A DNA stretch of 32,886 bases, from the NCBI GenBank assembly GCA_031281225.1, contig JAITFQ010000009.1, positions 1 through 32,886 of the forward strand. Reading direction: 5' to 3'. The position numbers and the translations under genes are program-made. The notes below the pieces were generated by a model, which did not search any database, had not been told where the DNA came from, and saw only the letters and a list, made by a program, of their open reading frames with translations. Positions 1 to 32,886 of this stretch are shown piece after piece. Origin of the DNA: Chitinispirillales bacterium (GTDB lineage Bacteria > Fibrobacterota > Chitinivibrionia > Chitinivibrionales > Chitinispirillaceae). Position 1 is the stretch's first letter, and each line of letters begins with the position of its first letter.

Positions 1-526
1 TCCAACTAGATGCAACAATAACAGTATTTATTGATCTCCTAGATCAGCTCAACATGTTTCGGGCAAACATTTGCCCATCTTCAGGAGCGCAAGAATTAGT
101 TTTTTACAGCATATGGTGTAATGTCCTGTAAAGATGGAAAATACAATAGATCTTTTGTGATAAGTTGCAGTGTTTCATGTTATCTATAGTTAGTGGCTGT
201 GTATTGTTATATTTAGGCATTATTGTAGTTGTATTTTAATGTGTGCTGTATAGTTGTTGGTATGTGTGTGGTAGTACGTGATTTTCGTATTCTGGGTATG
301 GGGTGGGGGGTTTTTAAGTGGTAATTAATGGGTAGGTTTTATGTGTGTAATGTATTTATTGGAATGTACATACCTGTTATGTGGTAGGCAGGGGTTTCCG
401 ATCTTGTTGCTTGTCACTACGAGTGTGTCTGTTCTACTGTCTTCTGTGAGTGGTATGCGGGTTATGGTCAATGGCGAGTTGAATGAGGGGGGTGGAGGGT
501 TCTCCACGGCTCTGTTCGGGGATTAG
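1..526. other. Non-bacterial-looking repeat DNA, possible insect host sequence
   Basis: No bacterial gene can be supported here. Base use changes sharply: the plus strand is rich in G and T, full of TGTGT and TATATTG words, while everything to the right is codon-structured and GC-richer. Bases 61-76 form a near-perfect palindrome (GGGCAAA-CA-TTTGCCC) inside a block that reads, on the minus strand, CTCCTGAAGATGGGCAAATG followed by CCGAAACATGTTGAGC. I associate that wording with interspersed repeats of insect and other animal genomes; this is recall, not a search. Frames across the region hold only short open stretches. The boundary at about 526 falls exactly where the kinase reading frame stops making sense. 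The likeliest explanation is an assembly or library chimera with host DNA. A real insertion cannot be excluded. Confidence 0.55.
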
Positions 527-997
527 AGTTATATGTATCCTGTTCTTTTTGTCGAGGAGTATGTTTTGCGGTTTTATGTCGCGGTGGATGATGTTGCGGC
601 TGTGCGCGAAGAGCAGGCCTCTGCATATCTGTTTTGAGAAGTCAATTATGATCGGTATGGGGACCCGTTTTGTTTCGGTGATGTATTCTCCCAGGTCCAT
701 GCCGTCTATAAACTGCATAGCGATGAAACTGTACCCGTCGGTATCGCCGTATTCGTAGATGTTTACTATGTTTTGGTGTTCTATAAGCGAAATTGCGTCC
801 GCTTCTGCCTTAAACCTTTTCGCGAACTCGTCGTCGCGCGATAGCTGCGGCGGAAGCACTTTAAGGGCTACGACCCGCTCAAGCGGCTCCTGCATCGCCC
901 TGTAAATGTCGCCCATGCCGCCCTTGCCGATCCTGCCAAGGATTCTGTAGCTGCCAATCTTTTCCGGCATGTTATCCGAAAACTTGCTTTTTGACAT
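434..997 (-). pseudogene. Serine/threonine protein kinase (PknB/Hanks type), truncated before DFG
   Basis: The N-terminal two thirds of a eukaryotic-type kinase domain are clear. They show a glycine loop GRIGKGGMGDIYRA (residues 21-34), the VALK lysine (about 46), an alpha-C glutamate region, and the catalytic loop HRDIKPQN (138-145). After IHIT (154-157) the expected DFG metal-binding motif is missing. The frame runs into about 30 unrelated residues (LIPEQSRGEPSTPLIQ onward) and stops at 434. The activation segment, C-lobe and any sensor domain are absent, so the reading frame as written cannot give an active kinase. The start is well supported: GGAG at 1007-1010 overlaps the stop of the upstream transporter gene, and the ATG follows 9 bases later, so the two are translationally coupled. 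The intact gene probably phosphorylates threonines read by the FHA domains of its neighbour. True kinase sequence ends near base 527. Confidence 0.88.
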
Positions 998-1009
998 AAA
1001 TAAAAACTC

Positions 1010-3214
1010 CTATGCGGCACCGCCGCGGCTCGTGCGCCATGAGAGCGCTACCCAAAATATAATAATTAATCCAGCGCAAAGCAAAAATAATTCTGTCCAG
1101 TCAGAATGCCAGAACAGCGGCCTGTCCAAAAAGAACACCTGCTTCATGACGCTGAAAACCGGACGCGAGACTGTGAGGTGGGAAATCTGCCTGCCCAATT
1201 CAGCCATATATTCGAATTGAACAAGTATCCCGGAGAAAAAAATCTGCGGTATGAGGACTATCGGAAGCGTGCTGATGGCGCGGCCGACGCTGCCGCTGCA
1301 AACGCTGACAACAAGCCCCAACACGTTGCCGGCAACTATTGCCGCGAACAACAGTATAAGAAGTTCTATCGAAAATTCCAGATTATGAAAAATGGCGACT
1401 GCGGAGATAATGAACAGAACCGCCTGCGAAGCCGACAGGGCGGCGGCCGTGGCAATCCGCGCCGTTATATATGATACGCGGTTCAATCCGCACTTTGATT
1501 CTCTAGCAAGAAGCGGCAGCTCCGCCGCGACCTCGCGCACGGCATCGAGACCGCCGACCCAAATGCCGGTCACTGTAAGGCAAAAATAAAAACTGATCGG
1601 AAATTGTAAAATGTTGAACTTGTAGACAAAGCCCAAAAGCAACGTAATGAGCGGCGTCTGCGCCATCAACAGAAGCATGTTGCGCCTGTCCCTGAGATAA
1701 ACCCTGCCGTAGCGCGCGGTCAGTACGCACGTCTGGCGCGCGAAGAGCGTTGCTGTCTGTAAAGGCCGCCTGAACGCCGCCGCCCACTCCCCGCGCGGCT
1801 GCGGCTGTTGAAGCTTCAGCACGGTGATCGGCTCGGCGGCATGCTTCCCCGCCTCAACCTCCGCACCGAACTCGCTGAGGTTCGTCTGATCGTAGACCCG
1901 CGCGATCTCCTCCACGCCGAAGTGCGCGCAAATCTCGCCCGGCGCACCTGAAAAAAGTACCTTGCCCCCCTGTATGTAGACCGCCCTGTCGCAAAGTTCC
2001 AGCTTCTCAAGATTGTGGGTGATGAGGATAAGCGTATGCCCCTTGTCGCAAATACGCCTGAAAAGCTGCATGAATTTCCCGATAAGCCCAGGGTCAAGCC
2101 CCGCGAGCGGTTCGTCGAGAATCACTACCGCCGGCGACGCCAAAAGTTCAACGCCTACGTGCAGCCGCCGCGCCTCCCCGCCGGACAGGTTGGCAACGCG
2201 CCGGTCGCGCTGCCGCGTAAGCTCCATGATGTCGAGCACCTCCTCGGCACGGATCAACCGCTCTCTGGCTGTGCTGTCGCCGGGGAGCCTGATCAGGCTT
2301 TGGTCGGTCAGCGTTTCCCATACCGTCAGCTCCGGGCGTAAAAGTATCTGTTGAGAAACGTACCCTATCCCCCGCGCGAACGCCGCGCTGAATTTAGTGG
2401 CAGGAAAACCGTTCAAAAAAAGCCGCCCCGACGTGGGGGCAAGCTGACCCGATAAAACTTTTGACAGCATGGACTTCCCCGCACCGCTCGCTCCAAGAAA
2501 CGCGACAAAGGCGCCGGGCTCAATCGTCAGGTTTACGTTGTCGAGAATTTTTTTTCCCTTAATACGCACGCCGAGGCCGTGAGCGTCTATCCTGATTTTG
2601 TTGATCGCCTCTATCCGGCAAAATTTCCCACCGGTCACATAAAACCTGAACGGCCCGATATGCACGACATCGCCCTCGCCAAGCGCCGCCGTCCCAACCG
2701 CGCAGCCATTGAGATAGGTGGAATTGGCGCTGCCCAGATCGGTAATCGAAAGTTTGCCGTCGGCGGTCTTTACGACAGCGTGAAAACGGGAGACCATCGG
2801 GTGGTGCAGGCAGATATCGTTTGCGGAGTCGCGCCCGATTTTTATCGCGTCTGCCCCCTCCCCGCTAAATTCGGTCGCATACTCGTCGGAATTGACGTGG
2901 GTGAGGCTAATGTATCCGTCGTCAATAAAGACCTGCAAAACGTGGATGCCTATGGTAACCGCGGCGCCGCTCGGCAAAACTGTCTCCTTGATGAGTTCGC
3001 CGTCGAGCCGCGTGCCGCAACTGCTGTCCAAATCAATAATAACGGGGCGCTCGCCGCACCGTATTACCGCGTGCTGCCGCGATACACCAAAACCGGCGAG
3101 GCAGACATCGCAGACCGTACCATCACGCCCAATCCTGATTTCACGGCCATCAAGGGGAAAAGAATACGCGGCTTGCGGGGCCGCCGATGCTGGTGTTGAC
3201 GCTGACTGGTTCAT
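1010..3214 (-). CDS. ABCG-type ABC transporter with two N-terminal FHA domains
   Basis: 734 aa. Two forkhead-associated domains, which bind phosphothreonine, come first: one around residues 25-95 (IRIGR, SRQHAVI, SSCGTRLDG) and one around 122-192 (IKIGRD, VSRFHAVV, NSTYLNG). An ABC ATPase follows (about 208-440) with Walker A GASGAGKS (241-248), signature LSGGE (343-347), Walker B VVILDEP (363-369) and an H-loop ITHN. The C-terminal ~230 residues contain about six hydrophobic segments of an ABC2-type permease, so this is a half-transporter of the White/ABCG kind that should dimerise in the inner membrane. The substrate is unknown. The gene lies 57 bp after a small membrane protein and 12 bp before the kinase. 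That order suggests kinase-dependent control of the transporter through its FHA domains (inference). No strong ribosome site is seen; GGGG lies about 12 bases upstream. Confidence 0.92.
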   Translation of the reverse strand: MNQSASTPASAAPQAAYSFPLDGREIRIGRDGTVCDVCLAGFGVSRQHAVIRCGERPVIIDLDSSCGTRLDGELIKETVLPSGAAVTIGIHVLQVFIDDGYISLTHVNSDEYATEFSGEGADAIKIGRDSANDICLHHPMVSRFHAVVKTADGKLSITDLGSANSTYLNGCAVGTAALGEGDVVHIGPFRFYVTGGKFCRIEAINKIRIDAHGLGVRIKGKKILDNVNLTIEPGAFVAFLGASGAGKSMLSKVLSGQLAPTSGRLFLNGFPATKFSAAFARGIGYVSQQILLRPELTVWETLTDQSLIRLPGDSTARERLIRAEEVLDIMELTRQRDRRVANLSGGEARRLHVGVELLASPAVVILDEPLAGLDPGLIGKFMQLFRRICDKGHTLILITHNLEKLELCDRAVYIQGGKVLFSGAPGEICAHFGVEEIARVYDQTNLSEFGAEVEAGKHAAEPITVLKLQQPQPRGEWAAAFRRPLQTATLFARQTCVLTARYGRVYLRDRRNMLLLMAQTPLITLLLGFVYKFNILQFPISFYFCLTVTGIWVGGLDAVREVAAELPLLARESKCGLNRVSYITARIATAAALSASQAVLFIISAVAIFHNLEFSIELLILLFAAIVAGNVLGLVVSVCSGSVGRAISTLPIVLIPQIFFSGILVQFEYMAELGRQISHLTVSRPVFSVMKQVFFLDRPLFWHSDWTELFLLCAGLIIIFWVALSWRTSRGGAA

Positions 3215-19678: not shown

Positions 19679-21226
19679 TTACGAATCAAGCTCAAACCTC
19701 GCCTCTACCCACAACGTCCGGTCGGGGACCAAGTCGGAGCGGATTGTGTCGGTGTCTATCAGGTTGTCGGATTCGAACCAGCCGGTGAAACGCCAGCCGG
19801 GGGATGGGACGGCGGTTATTGTCGGCAGCCTTGTGTTTAGGGCGGCGGACTGGTCGTTGTAGATGTCGACGAGGTTTTCTATCCCGTCTACCCTGAGTTT
19901 GCCGCCGGTGCCGGATGTGTACATTACGAAGTTTGCCGAGCCGTCGCCTACCCTGAACATGGCGGTTAGGGTTGTGTTCTCAAAGACTATGTCGTCGCGG
20001 GAGGGGGCGGTCAGGCCGTCGCTCCAGCGGTCGAAGACGTAGCCCGTGTTGGGGGAGGCCGTTACCCGCAGACCCTTTACGCCGGGGCCTAAAATCATGA
20101 CGCACGAGTCGCCCTCGGTGCGCTCCCCGTCTATGATTAGCGCGAGGTTGCCGCCGGGGCCGGCTCTGTATGTCAGCGTGCACAGGGGTATCTCTTTAAG
20201 CTGCGGGTAGTAGGAGCCGGGCGAGATTGTCCACGTTGTTGTGAAGTCCCAGCCTTCGAATGTGGAGGCGCTCAGCATTTCCGCCGTGGGCCTGCCTGTT
20301 CCGCCGGTCGACACGTTTTGGTTTGACGCGCCGATGTCCCAAAAGCTGTTGGTTACCGCGACGTTTTTTACCGCCTCGCCGGCGCTGTTTCTGCCCCGCA
20401 CGTTCCATGCGGGGTTGCCCGCGCTAAAATCCTGACCGCCCAAGCCGCCTACGGTGCCGCTCCCCACCACCTGACCGACCGAAAAGCACTTGTCTATGGT
20501 TCCGCCAAAGGTGTAGCCAACGAGGCCGCCCACGTTGCTCGCGCCGCCGCTGCCCACCCGGCCGGCGGCATAACTGTCGGCGATTGAACCGCTGACGACC
20601 GCCGCCAGAAAGCCAACTAACCCGCCCACGTTTTCCCTGCCGTCTACCGTGGCGGTAGAGAAGCTCTTTTCTATCCGCCCGCCGTTTACGCCCACAAGGC
20701 CGCCGACGTTGCTCTCGGTAAGGCGCAGGCCGTTTACGTAGCCCAGCGTATAGGAGCTGATTATGTCGCCGTCGTTGCTGCCTGCCAGAATGCCGACAGC
20801 GTACGAGCCTGTAACGCCGTGCGAGCTGCTACCTGCCGCGGTGTCTGCGGAAACGCCTAAATTCCGTATTACCGCGCCGCGCCCGACGTAGCCAAACAGG
20901 CCGACGTTGCCCTCCGATACGCGGTTGATATAAAGCCCGGTTATCACCTTGCCGGCGCCGTTGAACTCGCCGGTGAAGGGCGCCGCTGCGGTGCCGATGG
21001 GCTTCCACCCCAAGTTGCCGGCGGCTTCGCGGCATATCTGGGAGATGTCGATATTGTCGGCGAGCTCAAACCTGCCGCTCAACGAATAACCGGGGCGGTC
21101 GCCGCCTATCCAGCTTAGCTCTTCGGCCGTCGATATCATGGTGTAACCCTGAGCGGCGGCGGGCGCCGCCGATAACAGCATAACAGCCGCCGCAAGGCCG
21201 GCCGACAACAATTTTTTGCTAATCAT
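19679..21226 (-). CDS. Secreted GLUG-repeat protein with InlB-type repeats
   Basis: 515 aa. Signal peptide 1-25 (KKLLSAGLAAAVMLLSAAPAAAQ). From about 90 to 270 it has six GLUG-type repeats with cores VGLFGYVG, VGILAGSN, VGGLVGVNGG, VGGLVGFLAA, VGGLVGYTFGG and VGGLGGQ, then the segment that usually follows them (NSFWDIGASNQ, TGRPTAEMLSASTFEGWDF). Two divergent InlB B-repeat-like domains follow (YRAGPGGNLALIIDG to YVFDRWSDG, and YTSGTGGKLRVDG to WRFTGWFESD). GLUG domains occur in cell-surface and protease-associated proteins; no catalytic motif is seen. The gene starts 2 bp after the giant surface protein ends. Its GGAG (21237-21240) lies within that gene, so the two are coupled. It lacks the C-terminal sorting-like tail of its partner. 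Confidence 0.88.
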   Translation of the reverse strand: MISKKLLSAGLAAAVMLLSAAPAAAQGYTMISTAEELSWIGGDRPGYSLSGRFELADNIDISQICREAAGNLGWKPIGTAAAPFTGEFNGAGKVITGLYINRVSEGNVGLFGYVGRGAVIRNLGVSADTAAGSSSHGVTGSYAVGILAGSNDGDIISSYTLGYVNGLRLTESNVGGLVGVNGGRIEKSFSTATVDGRENVGGLVGFLAAVVSGSIADSYAAGRVGSGGASNVGGLVGYTFGGTIDKCFSVGQVVGSGTVGGLGGQDFSAGNPAWNVRGRNSAGEAVKNVAVTNSFWDIGASNQNVSTGGTGRPTAEMLSASTFEGWDFTTTWTISPGSYYPQLKEIPLCTLTYRAGPGGNLALIIDGERTEGDSCVMILGPGVKGLRVTASPNTGYVFDRWSDGLTAPSRDDIVFENTTLTAMFRVGDGSANFVMYTSGTGGKLRVDGIENLVDIYNDQSAALNTRLPTITAVPSPGWRFTGWFESDNLIDTDTIRSDLVPDRTLWVEARFELDS

Positions 21227-21228
21227 AA

Positions 21229-24200
21229 TTAACGCACTCCTATCTTGAATGATACTTTTTCTCTTCTGCCGTCAACAGTGGTAACCTCGCCTTTAAACAG
21301 ATACATCCCCGCGCCTACCGGCCTGCCGCGCGCGTCCGTCAAGTCCCACGAACCTACCGCGCGCCACGATTCGGCGGCGGAAGCGGGCGAAGACGCTGGC
21401 CTGCCCATGCGGTGGCCGTCATTAATAGCTATCCGGCTGACAATATTGCCAGACGCGTCGTACACCGTCAGCGCCGCGTCCGCGACGCGCCCGCCTTCCC
21501 GGAAAATTCTGACGACGGACGGCGAACTGCCCCTGCGGATGACGTTTGGCCCGGCTGTGAACTTGCCGAGCGGCTCGGCAGGCTGCGGCAGCGCGAACTC
21601 CTCAGCCTCCGCTTCCGGCGCGTTGTTCTCTACCGACGGCGGTATTACACGCAGGGCCGACGAAGCGGAAATTACTCCGCTGCCGGTGTCGACAGACACG
21701 GTAAAATTAACTACGCCGCCGGAAACGCCGCTCGCCAGCACCAAGCCGAATACCGCAACGCCGGACGCGTCTGTCATAATAACCTTATTGATGGAGTATC
21801 CGGAGATATTTACCGTAAACGTCAGGCCGACAGCGCTCTCCGTGAACGGCGCTCCCAGCGTATCGAGCACGCGGACGCGGACATTGTGAGACGCCCCCGG
21901 CCCCGCGTACATCGTGTCGGCAGGCACAAGAAATTCCACCCCGCCCAAAACCGGAATAACTACCACAACCGCCGTCCACTTCGCGTAAAGCGCGGCGGCA
22001 GACGTTACGTTTGTTAGCGGAAACGTTACCGCGGATGTGAACTCCGGGTCGCTGTACCAGCCGTCAAAAGTGTAGCCCGCCCGGGTCATCGCCGCCGGTG
22101 CGGTTATCACGCCGCCGTGGTCGACGGATGTCTGCGTGGGCGCTGGGAGGCCGCCGCCCGCGCTCCACGTGACCGTGTAAGTGTCGGGTGTGCCGGATGT
22201 CCAGTTTGCCGTATACGCCAAATCGCCCGTGCTGCCAAGCGCAACCGTTACGATTATCTGCGGGGTTGTGCCGTTGCTGCCCGTCCAGCCGGCAAACGTG
22301 TAGCCCGTTTTTGTAGGATTAGACAGCGTAAAAGCAGGCGTCTCTATCGTGTAGGTTACCGGATTGGCAACCGCCGCCGTACCGCCGTCGAGTTCGTAAG
22401 TTATGCTGTATGCCGCAGGCTCCCACTTAACGTAAAGCGTTATGCTCGCGTTGACCACCGTAGTGCCGAACACAAACTCCGTGTACACGAAATTGGGAGC
22501 CGTGCCGACGCGGGTGTACCATGCGCCGTCGTGAGCGTAGCCGTCTCTCGTAATGCCCGCAAGCGAAGGCTGCGACGACACAGGAATACTCTGCCCCGCC
22601 ACAACATCAAGAGGCGCGGGAATAGTGCCGCCAACGCCGCCGTTGCGGTCAAAAGTAACGGTATGCGTAACAGCCGCCGTCCACCGCAAACTGAGGGTGA
22701 TGTCGGAAGTAACGGGCGTAGTGCCAAACACAAACTCGGTATAAGTGAAATTCGGAGCCGTGCCGGTGCGGATATACCAAATGTCGTCGTGTGCGTGCCC
22801 CGCCATCGTAACGCCCGCAGACGAAGGCCGCGACGACACGGGAATCGTGCCGTTCGGCGCTACATAAAGAGCCTCGGGTATATTACCGCCCGTGCCGCCG
22901 TTACGGTCGAAACCAACGGTGTGCGTAGCGCCGGCAACAAGGACGATGTTATCGCCGCTCGTGGCCAAAGCGTGATTGGGCAAGGTTTGCAGAGAGAAAC
23001 GGGGCAGATGAGCGCCCCCGCCGCGCACCATTATTGCGCCGTCGGTTTGAGCCCTTGTAGGAGGGTCGAGCGCGTATACGTTGTTGCCGGTTAGGGGAGA
23101 TACGAAAGGCACCTCTATGTTGCCGGCGTCGAAGCTGGATATACGGCCGGTGATTGTTGGGTTGCCGCTGAGGTTAAGGCGGCCGTTTCTGTTGGCGGCG
23201 GTGTTGGAATTTGTGTAAGAGTTGAAAATGGCAATGCCGCCGGCGGTGTTTTCTATCGTTCCGCCGGTTATTGATATGGCGTCCGTGGCACTGGATTGAT
23301 TGAAAATAGTTCCGTTGTTAATTGCAGTATTACCGGAGGTAACCAACGCTGTTTCTGATATGGTAACCCTTCCGCCCGCAATCTCAATCGCTCTGCCTCT
23401 CTCGGAACTGACGGTTCCGCCGGTGATGGTAACCGTGGCATTGGAACCGGTATTATAAATAGCGCTGTTCGTTCCCGGTACAAAAACTCTCCCGCCGCTG
23501 ACTATAACCGAACCGGAAGCATTAGTGGCGGGGCTGTTGCGAATCGCGTTCCACCCCGCTACCGCTACCGTGATGTCTCCACCCTCAACAACTGTTATTG
23601 AGTAATCCCTACCAGCAGTACCGGCGGCGTCAGTAGTACCGATGGCGTGGGTATTGTTCATGGCCGCAATGCGCCCAGCGACTGCTATTGAGATACCGGT
23701 ACTCACGTTAATCGTATTAGCGGCACTAACATTAGTGGACGCCGTAACAATCCCCCCCGTAAGCGTCACCGGACTCCCCCACGCTTCACCATTCGTTACA
23801 GTTGTATTGGCAAAAGTTATGCCGCTTGTCCCAAGATTCAGGATATTACTTCCACCACTCCCAAACTGTATGATACATGGTTCGGCGGCAGCGTCTCTTC
23901 TTATAGCCTCAATGGCAGCCTGTATGGTCACGCCTGTTCTCACGGTAGAATCACTCCTCACCACATTAAAATCCGCGCCGTTGTTTGTGATAATATAGAC
24001 AGGTGTAAAAGTTTCGTGATTGTCTTTGAGAGAAAGTATAATATTATCACCGCTTCCGGTTAATTCGTATATGCGTCCGTTCAGCCTGAATTTATCTAAA
24101 TGTCCGCTACCGCCGCGCACCATTATCGCCCCATCCGTCCGGGCTCCCAATACGGGGTCGAGCGTGTATACGTTGCTGCCGGTTAAGGAAGATACGAAAG

Positions 24201-26199
24201 GCACCTCTATGTTGCCTGCGTTAAAGCCGGTTATGTGCCCGGTAATTGTTGGGTTGCCGCTAAGGTTGAGGCGGCCGTTTCTGTTGGCGGCGGTGTTGGA
24301 ATTTGTGACGGAGTTAAAAATGGCTATGCCGCCGGCGGTGTTTTCTATCGTTCCGCCGGTTATCGATATGGCGTCCGTGGCACCGGATTGATTGAAAATA
24401 GTTCCGTTGTTGATTGTAGTATTACCGGAGGTAACCAACGCTGTTTCTGATATGGTAACCCTTCCGCCCGCAATCTCAATCGCCCTGCCTCTCTCAGAAC
24501 TAACGGTTCCGCCGGTGATGGTAACCGTGGCATTGGAACCGCCGGTATTAAAAATAGCGCTGTTCGTTCCCGGTACAAAAACTCTCCCGCCGCTGATTCT
24601 GACCGAACCGGAACTAGTACCAGAGGTGCCGTTGCGAATCGCGTTTTGCGATGTTCCCGTCGCTGTAACATCTCCACCCTCAACAACTGTTATTGAGCCA
24701 CCACTGGCAACACCGATGGCGTGGGTATTGTTCATGGCCGCAATGCGCCCGGCGACTGCTATTGAGATACCGGTACCCACGGTAATCGTATTATCGGCAC
24801 TAACATTAGTGGACGCCGTAACAAGCCCCCCCGTAATCGTCACCGGACTCCCCCACGCTTCACCATTCGTTACAGTTGTATTGGCAAAAGTTATGCCGCT
24901 TGTCCCAAGATTCAGGGTATTACTTCCTCCGCTCCCAAACTGTATGATACACGGTTCCGCGGCGGCGTCTCTTCTTATGGCCTCAATGGCAGCCTGTATG
25001 GTCACGCCGGTTCTTACGGTAGAATCGCTTCTTGCCACGTTAAAATCCGCGCCGTTGTTTGTGATAACATAGACAGGTGTAAAAGTTTCGTGATTGTCTT
25101 TGAGAGAAAGTATAATATTATCACCGCTTCCGGTTAATTCGTATATGCGTCCATTCAGCCTGAATTTATCTAAATGTCCGCTACCGCCGCGCACCATTAT
25201 CGCCCCATCCGTCCGGGCTCCCAATACGGGATCGAGCGTGTATACGTTGCTGCCGGTTAAGGAAGATACGAAAGGCACCTCTATGTTGCCTGCGTTAAAA
25301 CCGGTTATGTACCCGGTAATTGTTGGGTTGCCGCTAAGGTTGAGACGGCCGTTTCTGCTGGTAGCGGTGTTGGAATTTGTGGCAGAGTTAAAAATGGCAA
25401 TGCCGCCGGCGGCGGTATTTTCTACCGTTCCACCGGTTATTGATATGGCGTCTGCGGTACTAGATTGATTGAAAATAGTTCCGTTGTTAATTGCAGTATT
25501 ACCGGAAGTAACCAACGCTGTTTCTGATATTGTAAGTATATTGCTATTTTCAATCGCCCTGCCGCTCTCTGAACTGACGGTTCCGCCGGTGATAGTAAGC
25601 GTTCTCAGATTGTAAATAGCAGTGTTTGTTCCCGTTGCTGAAACTCTTCCACCGCTGATTCTAACTGAACCGGAACTAGTAATACTGGTGCCGTTGCGAA
25701 TCGCGTTCCACCCCGCTACCGCTACCGTGATGTCTCCACCCTCAACAACTGTTATTGAGTAATTGCTACCAGTAGTACCGATGGCGTGGGTATTGTTCAT
25801 GGCCGCAATGCGCCCGGCGACTGCTATTGAGATACCGGTACCCACGGTAATCGTATTATCGGCACTAACATTAGTGGACGCCGTAACAAGTCCACCCGTA
25901 AGCGTCACCGGACTCCCCCACGTCTCCCCCGTCACATTCGCAAACGATATCCCCGCTGTCCCGATATTGAGGTTATCGCTCCCTCCGCTCCCGAACTGTA
26001 TCGTAACCGCCGCCCCTGCCGCGTCGGCCCTTATGGCGTTGACCACCGTTTGTATTGCCGCGCCCGGTTCGCCCACTGCCGCCCCGCTTCTCGTTGCCGT
26101 AAACCCAGTTCCGCTTGCCGTGACGACGTATGTTTGCGCCGCTGTTGCCGCGGCCATCATCATCACCATTACCGCGCATAGCGCGAAGACACGTTTCAT
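21229..26199 (-). CDS. Giant modular surface protein: three beta-helix modules, InlB repeats, Ig-like domain and sorting-type C-terminus
   Basis: 1656 aa. Signal peptide 1-21 (MKRVFALCAVMVMMMAAATA). Three tandem modules of about 355-358 aa (about 23-376, 377-734, 735-1092) are built from short strands such as SGSVRISGGRV, VTITGGTVSSE and ISITGGTIENTAGG, typical of a right-handed beta-helix. Next are two ~85-aa InlB-type repeats (FDRNGG, TAPNFxYTEFVFGTT), then two further InlB/Flg_new repeats (GYTFAGW, GYTFDGWYSDPEF) to about 1410. A bacterial Ig-like domain (about 1415-1525) follows, then a FlgD/type IX-like tail (GPNVIRRG, LTVYDASGNIVSRI, GRPVGAGMYLFKGEV, ending KIGVR). It is probably exported and surface-anchored, as an adhesin or stalk-like protein. 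A good ribosome site (AAGGAAAA) precedes the ATG. No catalytic residues were recognised. Confidence 0.88.
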   Translation of the reverse strand: MKRVFALCAVMVMMMAAATAAQTYVVTASGTGFTATRSGAAVGEPGAAIQTVVNAIRADAAGAAVTIQFGSGGSDNLNIGTAGISFANVTGETWGSPVTLTGGLVTASTNVSADNTITVGTGISIAVAGRIAAMNNTHAIGTTGSNYSITVVEGGDITVAVAGWNAIRNGTSITSSGSVRISGGRVSATGTNTAIYNLRTLTITGGTVSSESGRAIENSNILTISETALVTSGNTAINNGTIFNQSSTADAISITGGTVENTAAGGIAIFNSATNSNTATSRNGRLNLSGNPTITGYITGFNAGNIEVPFVSSLTGSNVYTLDPVLGARTDGAIMVRGGSGHLDKFRLNGRIYELTGSGDNIILSLKDNHETFTPVYVITNNGADFNVARSDSTVRTGVTIQAAIEAIRRDAAAEPCIIQFGSGGSNTLNLGTSGITFANTTVTNGEAWGSPVTITGGLVTASTNVSADNTITVGTGISIAVAGRIAAMNNTHAIGVASGGSITVVEGGDVTATGTSQNAIRNGTSGTSSGSVRISGGRVFVPGTNSAIFNTGGSNATVTITGGTVSSERGRAIEIAGGRVTISETALVTSGNTTINNGTIFNQSGATDAISITGGTIENTAGGIAIFNSVTNSNTAANRNGRLNLSGNPTITGHITGFNAGNIEVPFVSSLTGSNVYTLDPVLGARTDGAIMVRGGSGHLDKFRLNGRIYELTGSGDNIILSLKDNHETFTPVYIITNNGADFNVVRSDSTVRTGVTIQAAIEAIRRDAAAEPCIIQFGSGGSNILNLGTSGITFANTTVTNGEAWGSPVTLTGGIVTASTNVSAANTINVSTGISIAVAGRIAAMNNTHAIGTTDAAGTAGRDYSITVVEGGDITVAVAGWNAIRNSPATNASGSVIVSGGRVFVPGTNSAIYNTGSNATVTITGGTVSSERGRAIEIAGGRVTISETALVTSGNTAINNGTIFNQSSATDAISITGGTIENTAGGIAIFNSYTNSNTAANRNGRLNLSGNPTITGRISSFDAGNIEVPFVSPLTGNNVYALDPPTRAQTDGAIMVRGGGAHLPRFSLQTLPNHALATSGDNIVLVAGATHTVGFDRNGGTGGNIPEALYVAPNGTIPVSSRPSSAGVTMAGHAHDDIWYIRTGTAPNFTYTEFVFGTTPVTSDITLSLRWTAAVTHTVTFDRNGGVGGTIPAPLDVVAGQSIPVSSQPSLAGITRDGYAHDGAWYTRVGTAPNFVYTEFVFGTTVVNASITLYVKWEPAAYSITYELDGGTAAVANPVTYTIETPAFTLSNPTKTGYTFAGWTGSNGTTPQIIVTVALGSTGDLAYTANWTSGTPDTYTVTWSAGGGLPAPTQTSVDHGGVITAPAAMTRAGYTFDGWYSDPEFTSAVTFPLTNVTSAAALYAKWTAVVVVIPVLGGVEFLVPADTMYAGPGASHNVRVRVLDTLGAPFTESAVGLTFTVNISGYSINKVIMTDASGVAVFGLVLASGVSGGVVNFTVSVDTGSGVISASSALRVIPPSVENNAPEAEAEEFALPQPAEPLGKFTAGPNVIRRGSSPSVVRIFREGGRVADAALTVYDASGNIVSRIAINDGHRMGRPASSPASAAESWRAVGSWDLTDARGRPVGAGMYLFKGEVTTVDGRREKVSFKIGVR
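22924..23997 (-). repeat. Tandem module 3 of the surface protein
   Basis: Third unit. The 5' part is nearly the same as module 2, the centre carries an extra DAAGTAGRD stretch, and the 3' part (TGRISSFDAGNIEVPFVSPL to FSLQTLPNHALATSG) is clearly diverged. That leaves the last unit the least constrained at its C-terminal edge. Confidence 0.85.
23998..25071 (-). repeat. Tandem module 2 of the surface protein
   Basis: Unit of 1074 bp (358 codons), measured between matching bases at 25071 and 23997. Its first ~230 bases read (24840-25071) match module 3 at 23766-23997 almost base for base. Bases 24020-24290 match module 1 at 25094-25364 with only scattered, mostly A/G, differences. Confidence 0.9.
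25072..26132 (-). repeat. Tandem module 1 of the surface protein
   Basis: First of three head-to-tail units. The N-terminal part (TYVVTASGTGFTATRSG) is the most diverged. The central and C-terminal parts are nearly the same as module 2 (ASTNVSADNTITVGTGISI; DKFRLNGRIYELTGSGDNI). It shares SITVVEGGDITVAVAGWNAI with module 3 rather than module 2. The left boundary is set by the 1074-bp periodicity. Confidence 0.85.
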
Positions 26200-28780: not shown

Positions 28781-30193
28781 CTACTTTCCTATACAAAATT
28801 TACCAAAAACGCTGTCCAAAACCTCATCCCCCGTGACGTGCCCGGAAAATTCCGCGAGGCGTTCCAATGACGCTTTCAGATAATGCGCCGCGACCTCTTC
28901 CCGGTTAAAATTTTCGATGGAATCACGCAAGTCGTTGATTATTAAGGCGGTAATGGCGCGGTGACGGTCGTTTATGGCGATTTCGGGGGAGGGGAGGGTG
29001 TCTATGATTTCACGGATAGCGGCGCTTATTTTGTCGAATAATTTATTGGTGTTAATTTTTTCTGTCAGGCTCGCTTCTATGTATTCTAACGAATGCTGTT
29101 CGCAAAACCGCGTTTTTTCGGCTGGCGCGGCGAGGTCTATTTTATTGACGACAATAATGACGGGCGCCGCGTTATCCTGCCCGATAATGTCAATAACGGC
29201 TTCGCGCTCGCCATCCCCAAACGGCGCGTCCGCGGAGGTCACCCACAGGACAAGGTGTGCGTCCCCAATGGCGGACATTGTCCGCTCAATCCCAAAACGC
29301 TCAACTGCGTCGTCGGTATCGCGGATACCGGCGCTGTCAAATAATTTCACCGTGACGCCGTCAAAAACTATCCGCTCCGAAACAATGTCCCGCGTTGTCC
29401 CCGGGCGGTCGTGGACTATCGATCTGTCGTACCCCAGTATCTCGTTGAATAGACTGGACTTTCCGGCGTTTGGCGGGCCGGCGAGGGCGACGATTACGCC
29501 GTCGTCAAACGCCCTGACCCGGTCGCCGCGGCGCAGTTCATCCTCCAATTCCCGCACAATCAGCCCCAGCCCGCGCCTGTTCGCGTCCGCCCGCCCCTCC
29601 CCCAATTCGGCAACGTCGTCGTCCTCGCCAAACTCAATCCGGCTCTCGACATCCGACAGTATGTCAATGATCCGGTGTTTCAGTTTCTCTAACAATTCCA
29701 ACTGCTTACCCTGATACGCCAACTGCGCGGATTTCAGATGTTTTTCTGTTTGGCAGTCTATCAATCCGGCGATGCTCTCGGCTTTGAGCAGGTCCATTTT
29801 CCCGTTCAAAAACGCCCTGCGTGAAAACTCACCCCGGCCGGCCGGCCGCGCGCCCCCGTAAAACAGCCTGTCCAAAATCTTTTGCGGGACGACCGCCCCC
29901 CCATGGCAGAAAATCTCCACCATATCCTCACCGGTGAAAGAGCGCGGGGCCGCGTATTTTATGGCGGTCACCTCATCAATGATTTTTAAGCTGCCGGTTT
30001 TCGTATCGTTATCAGCGTCAATCACCGTATAAACACCAATTTTACGGGCAGATTCCCGGTCGAATTTCTCTTTTTCAGCGATTACAGAGACAAACAACTC
30101 ATGCACGCCATCCCCGGAGAGGCGGATAGCGGCCAAGGCGCCGCGGCCGGGGGGGGTGGAGAGGGTGGCGATGGGGGGGGATTGTGTACTCAT
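28781..30193 (-). CDS. mnmE: tRNA modification GTPase MnmE
   Basis: 470 aa from the ATG at 30193. With MnmG it installs the 5-carboxymethylaminomethyl group on wobble uridine 34 of several tRNAs. Seen: N-terminal formyl-THF-binding fold (PIATLSTPPGRGALAAIRLSG, FTGEDMVEIFCHGG, GEFSRRAFLNGKMDLLKAE), the G domain with P-loop GPPNAGKSS (about 236-244), PGTTRD, DSAGIRD (usually DTAGxR) and NKID, and the C-terminal CIGK (FGKFCIGK) that carries the catalytic cysteine. The start overlaps the PIN toxin stop as TGATG, so it is translationally coupled to the toxin-antitoxin genes. Two runs of 8 G (30149-30156, 30173-30180) fall in the first 15 codons. Codons for GVHELFVSVIAEK are duplicated at the end of the neighbouring ATPase gene. 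Confidence 0.97.
   Translation of the reverse strand: MSTQSPPIATLSTPPGRGALAAIRLSGDGVHELFVSVIAEKEKFDRESARKIGVYTVIDADNDTKTGSLKIIDEVTAIKYAAPRSFTGEDMVEIFCHGGAVVPQKILDRLFYGGARPAGRGEFSRRAFLNGKMDLLKAESIAGLIDCQTEKHLKSAQLAYQGKQLELLEKLKHRIIDILSDVESRIEFGEDDDVAELGEGRADANRRGLGLIVRELEDELRRGDRVRAFDDGVIVALAGPPNAGKSSLFNEILGYDRSIVHDRPGTTRDIVSERIVFDGVTVKLFDSAGIRDTDDAVERFGIERTMSAIGDAHLVLWVTSADAPFGDGEREAVIDIIGQDNAAPVIIVVNKIDLAAPAEKTRFCEQHSLEYIEASLTEKINTNKLFDKISAAIREIIDTLPSPEIAINDRHRAITALIINDLRDSIENFNREEVAAHYLKASLERLAEFSGHVTGDEVLDSVFGKFCIGK
30070..30110 (-). repeat. 41-bp direct repeat, copy in mnmE
   Basis: Encodes GVHELFVSVIAEK inside the N-terminal domain of MnmE, where it is part of a full-length, in-frame family member, so this is probably the source copy. 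It matches 30995-31035 at 38 of 41 bases. Confidence 0.9.
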
Positions 30194-30986: not shown

Positions 30987-32336
30987 CTACCCACCTTTTT
31001 CAGCTATTACGGAGACAAATAACTCATGCACGCCAGCAGGCGCGATAAATAATGCCATATATAGCGGCAGCGTCACTTTGTTTTCCGTAAAACCCGCGTT
31101 GCCGGCTATGAGTTTAATTCCGAACGGCGGTGCGAATTCCTCTAAAAATCTATTCAGGGAAACGGTTGCGTTGTTGCCGGATTTTACTTCTACGGGGATG
31201 ATGTCGGTTTCCTTAGTGAGCAAAAATTCTATTTCCTGCGCGTTGTTTTCCGGCTTGTAGAAGTATAGCGGAATATTTTTTTTGACGAAGATGTCGGCGA
31301 TTAAATTTTCATAAATTCCGCCTTTCGCGTGGCCGGCAAGGGTGTTTTTGATGATTGCCTGTTTCATCTCGAAGCCGTACATGGCGGTTAGCATTCCGAT
31401 ATCCATCAAGTAAACCTTAAACCAGTTTTTTTTGGAATAGGCGACTATCGGGAATTGCGGCGTGGAGACGTTTACGCAAAATTTTATGAGGCCGGCGTCT
31501 CTGAGCCATTCGAGCGAGTTTTCGTATTTTCGCGCGGAGCCGCCTTTTTCTATTACTGAAAATTGAAATTTTTTATTTTCTTTAGCGAGTTGATTCGGAA
31601 TGGATAAAAAGGCGTTTCGCGCTTTTGGTTTTTCCGCAGCGGAGGCGTATTTGGCTATGTCGTCCAAGTAGCTGCTTAATATTTTTTGTTGCAATTCATG
31701 AACTTTCACGAAATTTCCGGTTTCGACAAAAGTTTTAACAACCGCCGGCATCCCGCCGACAACCATGTATTCTCTAAGATATTTAAACATGGTTTCGTTT
31801 ACGTCGTCAGGGATTTTCTTTTTTTCCGAATAAAACCCCTTAATGTACTCTATTGCGTCTTTGTTTACCCCTTTCGCCCATAAAAACTCCTCAAAGTCCA
31901 TAGAAAACATCTCTACTTGATATTCGTATCCAACAGGGATTGAAGCAATCTCCTTATATGCGACACCTAACATTGAACCGGAGGCAATGCAGTCGAATCC
32001 AGAGCCTTGCGCCAAAAATTTTAACGCGGTTCTCGCTTGCGGGCATTCCTGAATCTCGTCTAAAAACAAAAGTGTATGATTTTCTATAAAATTGAACTCC
32101 GGCAAATGAATGGATAACTTTTGCAATATATCCTTTGCCGATAATCCGCCGGCGAAAATTTCCTTATGCTCAGGTCTCTCAAAAAAATTCAGGCTTATGA
32201 CGCTTTCATAGTGCTTTTTACCAAAATCCTCTACTATATAGGTCTTCCCAACCTGCCTGGCGCCTTTTACCAGCAGGCATTCTTTCCTGTGGGACTCTTT
32301 CCACTTCAAAAGAAAATCTGTAAACTTTCGTTCCAT
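30987..32336 (-). CDS. AAA ATPase with DUF4143 domain
   Basis: 449 aa. The N-terminal AAA domain has Walker A KGARQVGKTYIV (about 23-34), Walker B LLFLDEIQECPQA, and the sensor-like FDCIASGSMLGVA. The C-terminal DUF4143 region contains SLEWLRDAGLI, KVYLMDIGMLTAMYG, GGIYENLIADI and EIEFLLTKETDIIPVEVKSG, the last matching the nuclease-like E-x-K pattern of this family. Members are multicopy in gut bacteria and of unsettled function, possibly defence or mobile-element linked. The family normally ends soon after LPLYMA; here a tail IAPAGVHELFVSVIAEKGG copied from mnmE is added. No ribosome site is visible and the predicted transcription start is at the ATG, so it may be read from a leaderless mRNA. 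Confidence 0.9.
   Translation of the reverse strand: MERKFTDFLLKWKESHRKECLLVKGARQVGKTYIVEDFGKKHYESVISLNFFERPEHKEIFAGGLSAKDILQKLSIHLPEFNFIENHTLLFLDEIQECPQARTALKFLAQGSGFDCIASGSMLGVAYKEIASIPVGYEYQVEMFSMDFEEFLWAKGVNKDAIEYIKGFYSEKKKIPDDVNETMFKYLREYMVVGGMPAVVKTFVETGNFVKVHELQQKILSSYLDDIAKYASAAEKPKARNAFLSIPNQLAKENKKFQFSVIEKGGSARKYENSLEWLRDAGLIKFCVNVSTPQFPIVAYSKKNWFKVYLMDIGMLTAMYGFEMKQAIIKNTLAGHAKGGIYENLIADIFVKKNIPLYFYKPENNAQEIEFLLTKETDIIPVEVKSGNNATVSLNRFLEEFAPPFGIKLIAGNAGFTENKVTLPLYMALFIAPAGVHELFVSVIAEKGG
30995..31035 (-). repeat. 41-bp direct repeat, copy at the ATPase 3' end
   Basis: In the same orientation and reading frame as the mnmE copy, encoding the last residues (GVHELFVSVIAEK, then GG and stop) of the DUF4143 ATPase. 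The three mismatches are TTG/TTA, TCT/TCC and ATC/ATA, all synonymous. Confidence 0.9.
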
Positions 32337-32372: not shown

Positions 32373-32387
32373 GCGAAAAATTAAAAT

Positions 32388-32473
32388 TGCATATTTTTGG
32401 ACATTGAATTTTCAAAAACTGCATATTTTTGGACATTGAAAACCACATAAATTGCATATTTTCGGACATTGAA
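32388..32473. repeat. Three iteron-like repeats upstream of the DUF4143 ATPase
   Basis: Three copies of a 21-bp unit, TGCATATTTT then T, T or C, then GGACATTGAA, begin at 32388, 32420 and 32453 (spacing 32 and 33 bp, about three helical turns). Copies 1 and 2 are identical and copy 3 differs at one base; the intervening 11-12 bases are unrelated. They lie directly upstream of the -35 box, on one face of the helix. Confidence 0.9.
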
Positions 32474-32674
32474 ACCTGAAAAAGCGCGAAATTCAACTCT
32501 AATCAGCGATTCGCGCGTTTCGGAAAGGCTCCGAACGTTTCAACCGCCGTTTCCGCGACCTGACAGCCCGAATCGCAGGCCAGCAGAACTCGCGTAAACC
32601 CGGACGGTTGTACCCATCGTCCCATTGCGTCCGTTGGTTTGGACAAATCAGAAAAGTTTTTGACTTTTATATTG
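32474..32674. other. Spacer between iterons and IS5 end, possible gene remnant
   Basis: GC-richer than its flanks. One minus-strand frame stays open (DAMGRWVQPSGFTRVLL, QVAETAVETFGAFP), but it starts inside the insertion sequence and matches nothing I know. It may be the tail of a gene cut by the insertion, or chance. No RNA or promoter is evident. Confidence 0.3.
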
Positions 32675-32886
32675 CTATAGCCTGTTAACACTACAAATCG
32701 CATCCATACTCATTGCCAATAATATAAATCCAGCAAACATGTAATCCAGTTTATCGTATCGCGTAAAAATCCTGCGAAAGCGTTTCAAGCGTCGGAAATA
32801 ACGTTCTATCTCATTACGTTGCTTATACCGCTCTTTATCATAATCCCACGGTTCTTTACGATTCGCTTTGGGGGGAACCACTGGAA
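32675..32886 (-). mobile_element. IS5-family transposase, C-terminal part, cut by window end
   Basis: The open frame runs off the right edge. What remains (about 69 aa) is the C-terminus of a DDE transposase of the IS5 group: VPPKANRKEPWDYDKERYKQ, then NEIERYFRRLKRFRRIFTRYDKL, whose ERYFRRLKRFRR segment holds the catalytic Glu, then MFAGFILLAMSMDAI. The stop is at 32675-32677, followed closely by TAGCCTGTTAACAC on the plus strand, probably the terminal inverted repeat that marks the element's end near 32673-32690. The rest of the transposase and the other end lie outside the window. Such multicopy elements commonly end contigs. Confidence 0.88.

Follow-up and report, generated by a model that had tools for sequence, protein, structure and literature searches.

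In the Chitinispirillales, a gene encoding a protein kinase with a Pkinase domain (PF00069) lies beside the gene for an FHA-ABC transporter. A homologue of this kinase is present in 59 of the 61 genomes that we searched, the closest being complete frames of 350–405 aa at the kinase locus, and the closest named relatives of the kinase studied here come from metagenome-assembled genomes of the Chitinispirillales and Fibrobacterota. The first termite-associated Chitinispirillaceae were reported in PMC7024585, whose 589 genomes, obtained from the guts of higher termites, occupy the accession range WQRH–WRNX; one of the relatives, WQTH01000030.1 (isolate Co191P3bin71), falls within this range.

The window analysed here is the whole of contig C10 (C10:1-32886; 32,886 bases), which belongs to a draft genome of 163 contigs and 2.57 Mb that is 89% complete. 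This contig has the same kinase domain and the same neighbouring gene as the other Chitinispirillales, but it differs from them in that only one half of the kinase gene is on the contig. The features of its left end are the following.

1–526, no strand assigned: foreign-looking tail, non-coding, CpG-poor, TpG-rich and G/T-rich on the plus strand (from composition; no stop-free stretch above 65 codons; no relative found)
52–84, minus strand: CTGAAGATGGGCAAATGTTTGCCCGAAACATGT, a short hairpin word that the preliminary description tied to insect repeats (single copy in the genome)
434–526, minus strand: 30 spurious C-terminal residues and a stop, which the kinase frame gains by reading into the foreign tail (no Pfam match for these residues)
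527–997, minus strand: N-terminal half of a bacterial Ser/Thr protein kinase, native C10 sequence, continuing at G000:C82:1-590 (from Pfam and the orthologue alignment)
1010–3214, minus strand: FHA-FHA-ABC transporter gene, the neighbour of the kinase (same order and orientation in relatives)

The break in the kinase gene

The frame at 434–997 carries the Pkinase domain at residues 17–157 only, corresponding to Pfam positions 1–140 of 263 (E 1e-28). The C10 kinase aligns with five orthologues, taken from its own genus and family, as far as HRDIKPQNILLDKKNRIHIT (...NRIHIT / ...NILLDKKNRIHIT); in all five DFGIAK comes next, and it is exactly before DFG that the C10 frame diverges. The extent of the Pfam match and this alignment together bear out the earlier claim of a change in the kinase frame at about base 526, just before DFG, and the discontinuity of the sequence is confirmed as real. 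We have set the border at 526/527 by protein homology and not by base composition. The N-terminal half is about 64–74% identical to its close relatives, and the right side of the junction is native, since the FHA-FHA-ABC neighbour has the same order and orientation in relatives.

The other half of the gene

A true interruption of the gene should leave its other half beyond the foreign block, while a chimeric contig should leave it elsewhere in the genome and clean. The C-terminal half of a same-genus kinase orthologue, searched against the bacterium's own genome, located this missing half on a second contig, at C82:1-590, with a match that starts at base 12 (E 1.7e-72, 63% identity to the orthologue); all six further matches of the same query were far weaker, none better than E 4.5e-20. 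On C82 the reading frame is already open at the first bases; it reads FSNTGITMTGSTIGTPEYMSPEQ... and closes with a C-terminal tail resembling that of the orthologues. There are no foreign bases at this end of C82, which opens directly in kinase sequence. When the halves are aligned to the five orthologues they succeed one another as N-terminal half, DFGIAK(I/M/T/L/V) and C-terminal half, with no overlap; what is absent between them amounts to about 19 nt, namely the six codons of DFGIAK and the initial base of the codon that follows.

That the C-terminal half lies clean at the start of C82, some 19 bases from the break, argues that the bacterium almost certainly carries an intact kinase gene and that bases 1–526 are a chimeric contig end; we infer that C10 and C82 join across the 19 missing bases. 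The foreign-looking block is the very start of C10 and touches the contig end, and the native continuation is found elsewhere without the block. Of the two options offered by the preliminary description, an assembly chimera and an interdomain insertion, it is thus the first that is strongly supported. We consider it very probable indeed that 1–526 is an assembly or library chimera, in which the path was lost inside an intact kinase gene and the contig end was extended from another organism, most likely the insect (termite) host. In such a scheme the assembler would have lost its path within the kinase gene, so that C10 received the N-terminal half, at its left end, and C82 opens with the C-terminal half. 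The end of C10 would have been extended by 526 bases from another organism of the same sample, most likely through a wrong graph step, or a chimeric pair of reads, that joined host-derived sequence to the contig.

With respect to the join itself, we considered a template switch at a common 10-base word, CCCCGAACAG, which occurs 6–15 nt into the tail and again at C82:62. Sharing to this extent was seen in 3 of 400 random pairs. The word lies away from the junction, however, and leaves the join unexplained. The tail also contains TTCCGATCT at 396–404, its sole copy in C10 and with no longer adapter match; these 9 bases, identical to the end of the common Illumina adapter, may be either chance or the trace of a library chimera.

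The practical consequences are housekeeping only: bases 1–526 are to be trimmed from C10, annotation of the kinase as a protein of 187 residues is to be avoided, and C10 and C82 may be handled as adjacent contigs. The tail is an ordinary artefact, with no biological function implied.

Composition and origin of the tail

The tail differs strongly from the rest of C10 by several measures. Its GC content is 0.40 against a mean of 0.53 for the remainder, its GC skew 0.39 against a mean of −0.01, and its CpG observed/expected ratio 0.56 against a mean of 1.41 and a minimum of 0.99; the minimum in the first 20 kb of C82 (0.87) is likewise above the value for the tail. With 10 CpG where 17.9 are expected (shuffle P about 0.01), the depletion is a moderate one; TpG+CpA exceeds that of every other stretch compared. 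Among the 1226 stretches of 526 bases in C10 the tail has the highest trinucleotide divergence, with 0 of the 1225 others as deviant, and of 1274 other stretches only 2 have a longest stop-free run as short as its 65 codons or shorter. The earlier claim of a switch in composition at about base 526 therefore holds as regards the strong difference of 1–526 from the rest, but not as regards the position, since a simple two-segment fit puts the break at 687–784.

The tail is present once in its own genome. Nothing corresponding to it was seen in 168 Fibrobacterota genomes, the phages and plasmids searched gave no match, and no exact pieces of it were found in viral contigs; with no match in those searches, we have rejected the idea that it is a phage, a plasmid or a phylum-wide repeat. 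A transposon protein was likewise rejected, as the six longest frames of 1–526 have no Pfam match below E 0.2, a result that a non-coding repeat would also give.

The words that had been quoted as reminiscent of insect repeats do exist in the left block, on the minus strand at about 50–90. The hairpin word CTGAAGATGGGCAAATGTTTGCCCGAAACATGT does not occur in any of the 167 other Fibrobacterota genomes, and a literature word search for the hairpin motif gave no match. A looser version of the pattern had a single match in viral contigs, in phage-like coding DNA and with a different loop, which looks like chance. The preliminary description associates such words with insect repeats, and words of this type probably occur in arthropod repeats. 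We also considered a hammerhead ribozyme, since CTGAAGA...GAAAC resembles the hammerhead motifs of Penelope-like elements and retrozymes. Like these, the tail has a core-like CTGAAGA and GAAAC flanking a minus-strand hairpin; it differs from them in that the core contains an additional unpaired T and no third stem is visible. The hammerhead reading was rejected, as no Rfam hammerhead match appeared even at E up to 5, and no other Rfam family matched the hairpin word.

Methylated animal DNA is characterized by a loss of CpG with a gain of TpG, and the tail, with its CpG depletion and TpG gain, is likely to be animal DNA. In termites, genes are heavily CpG-methylated and the methylation tracks CpG depletion (PMC5111047). 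Termite DNA is the likeliest source of the tail because the close relatives of the kinase are Chitinispirillales metagenome drafts, at least one of them from a termite-gut study. The insect-gut habitat proposed earlier is accordingly plausible, through metagenome-derived relatives and the one whose accession fits the termite-gut set, but this support is indirect. If the tail matches a termite genome, the host species of the sample would be identified.

The tail could instead be chimeric but derived from another gut microbe, a phage, a protist or a food plant. A CpG ratio of 0.56 is not unique to animals, being seen in some bacteria, and the tail encodes no transposon protein. We nevertheless consider such a donor rather unlikely, given the lack of matches in phages, plasmids and the Fibrobacterota genomes, the absence of any frame above 65 codons, which is unusual for bacterial DNA, and the pairing of CpG loss with TpG gain that suits methylated animal DNA. 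Much less probable is a truncation of the kinase by rearrangement within the bacterium, the tail then being native intergenic or mobile DNA. Intergenic DNA can indeed be AT-rich and free of frames, but this tail is single in the genome and without counterpart in any relative, no other 526-base stretch in C10 or in the first 20 kb of C82 has so low a CpG ratio, and the matching orphan C-terminal half is present in the genome.

We give almost no credence to the idea that animal DNA or a mobile element truly inserted between the codons for HIT and DFG in the living bacterium: C10 as written does have one junction, but an insertion should have two, with the gene resuming after the insert, and the C-terminal half on C82 contradicts it by starting without foreign sequence about 19 bases from the break. 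Moreover, the block touches the contig end, so that with a single junction neither a target-site duplication nor element ends can be demonstrated, and no relative carries it. Equally hard to credit is an insertion of animal DNA carried by some members of the population, in which case C10 would represent the interrupted version and C82 the uninterrupted C-terminal half, both retained by the assembler.

Other features of C10 and comparison with known chimeric contigs

Elsewhere on the contig, mnmE has near its start a 41-base stretch of which a 93% copy lies at the 3' end of an AAA/DUF4143 ATPase gene (30070–30110 and 30995–31035), and because of this repeat the ATPase terminates in GVHELFVSVIAEKGG. 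Between the two copies is a PIN-domain / Phd-YefM-like toxin-antitoxin pair, as if the toxin-antitoxin module or the ATPase had inserted with a target duplication. Just upstream of the DUF4143 ATPase gene, at 32384–32483, a unit of 32–33 bases (AAATTGCATATTTTTGGACATTGAA...) occurs three times head-to-tail. At 32675–32884 the right contig end enters a frame, RYKQRNEIERYFRRLKRFRRIFTRYDKLDYMFAGFI, which resembles the final part of a putative IS5-type transposase; contigs commonly break off at such genes. Finally, 21229–26199 encodes a large secreted-looking repeat protein (1656 aa) whose three internal repeats are long and nearly identical, adjoined at 19679–21226 by a GLUG / InlB-repeat protein.

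The left end of C10, a case known here from assembled contigs, shows no notable difference from the chimeric contig ends and host contamination of metagenome-assembled genomes. Like them, it has a foreign tail at the extreme contig end, a cut in mid-frame with the other half of the gene lying at one end of a second contig of the same genome, and a habitat that is probably rich in host DNA.
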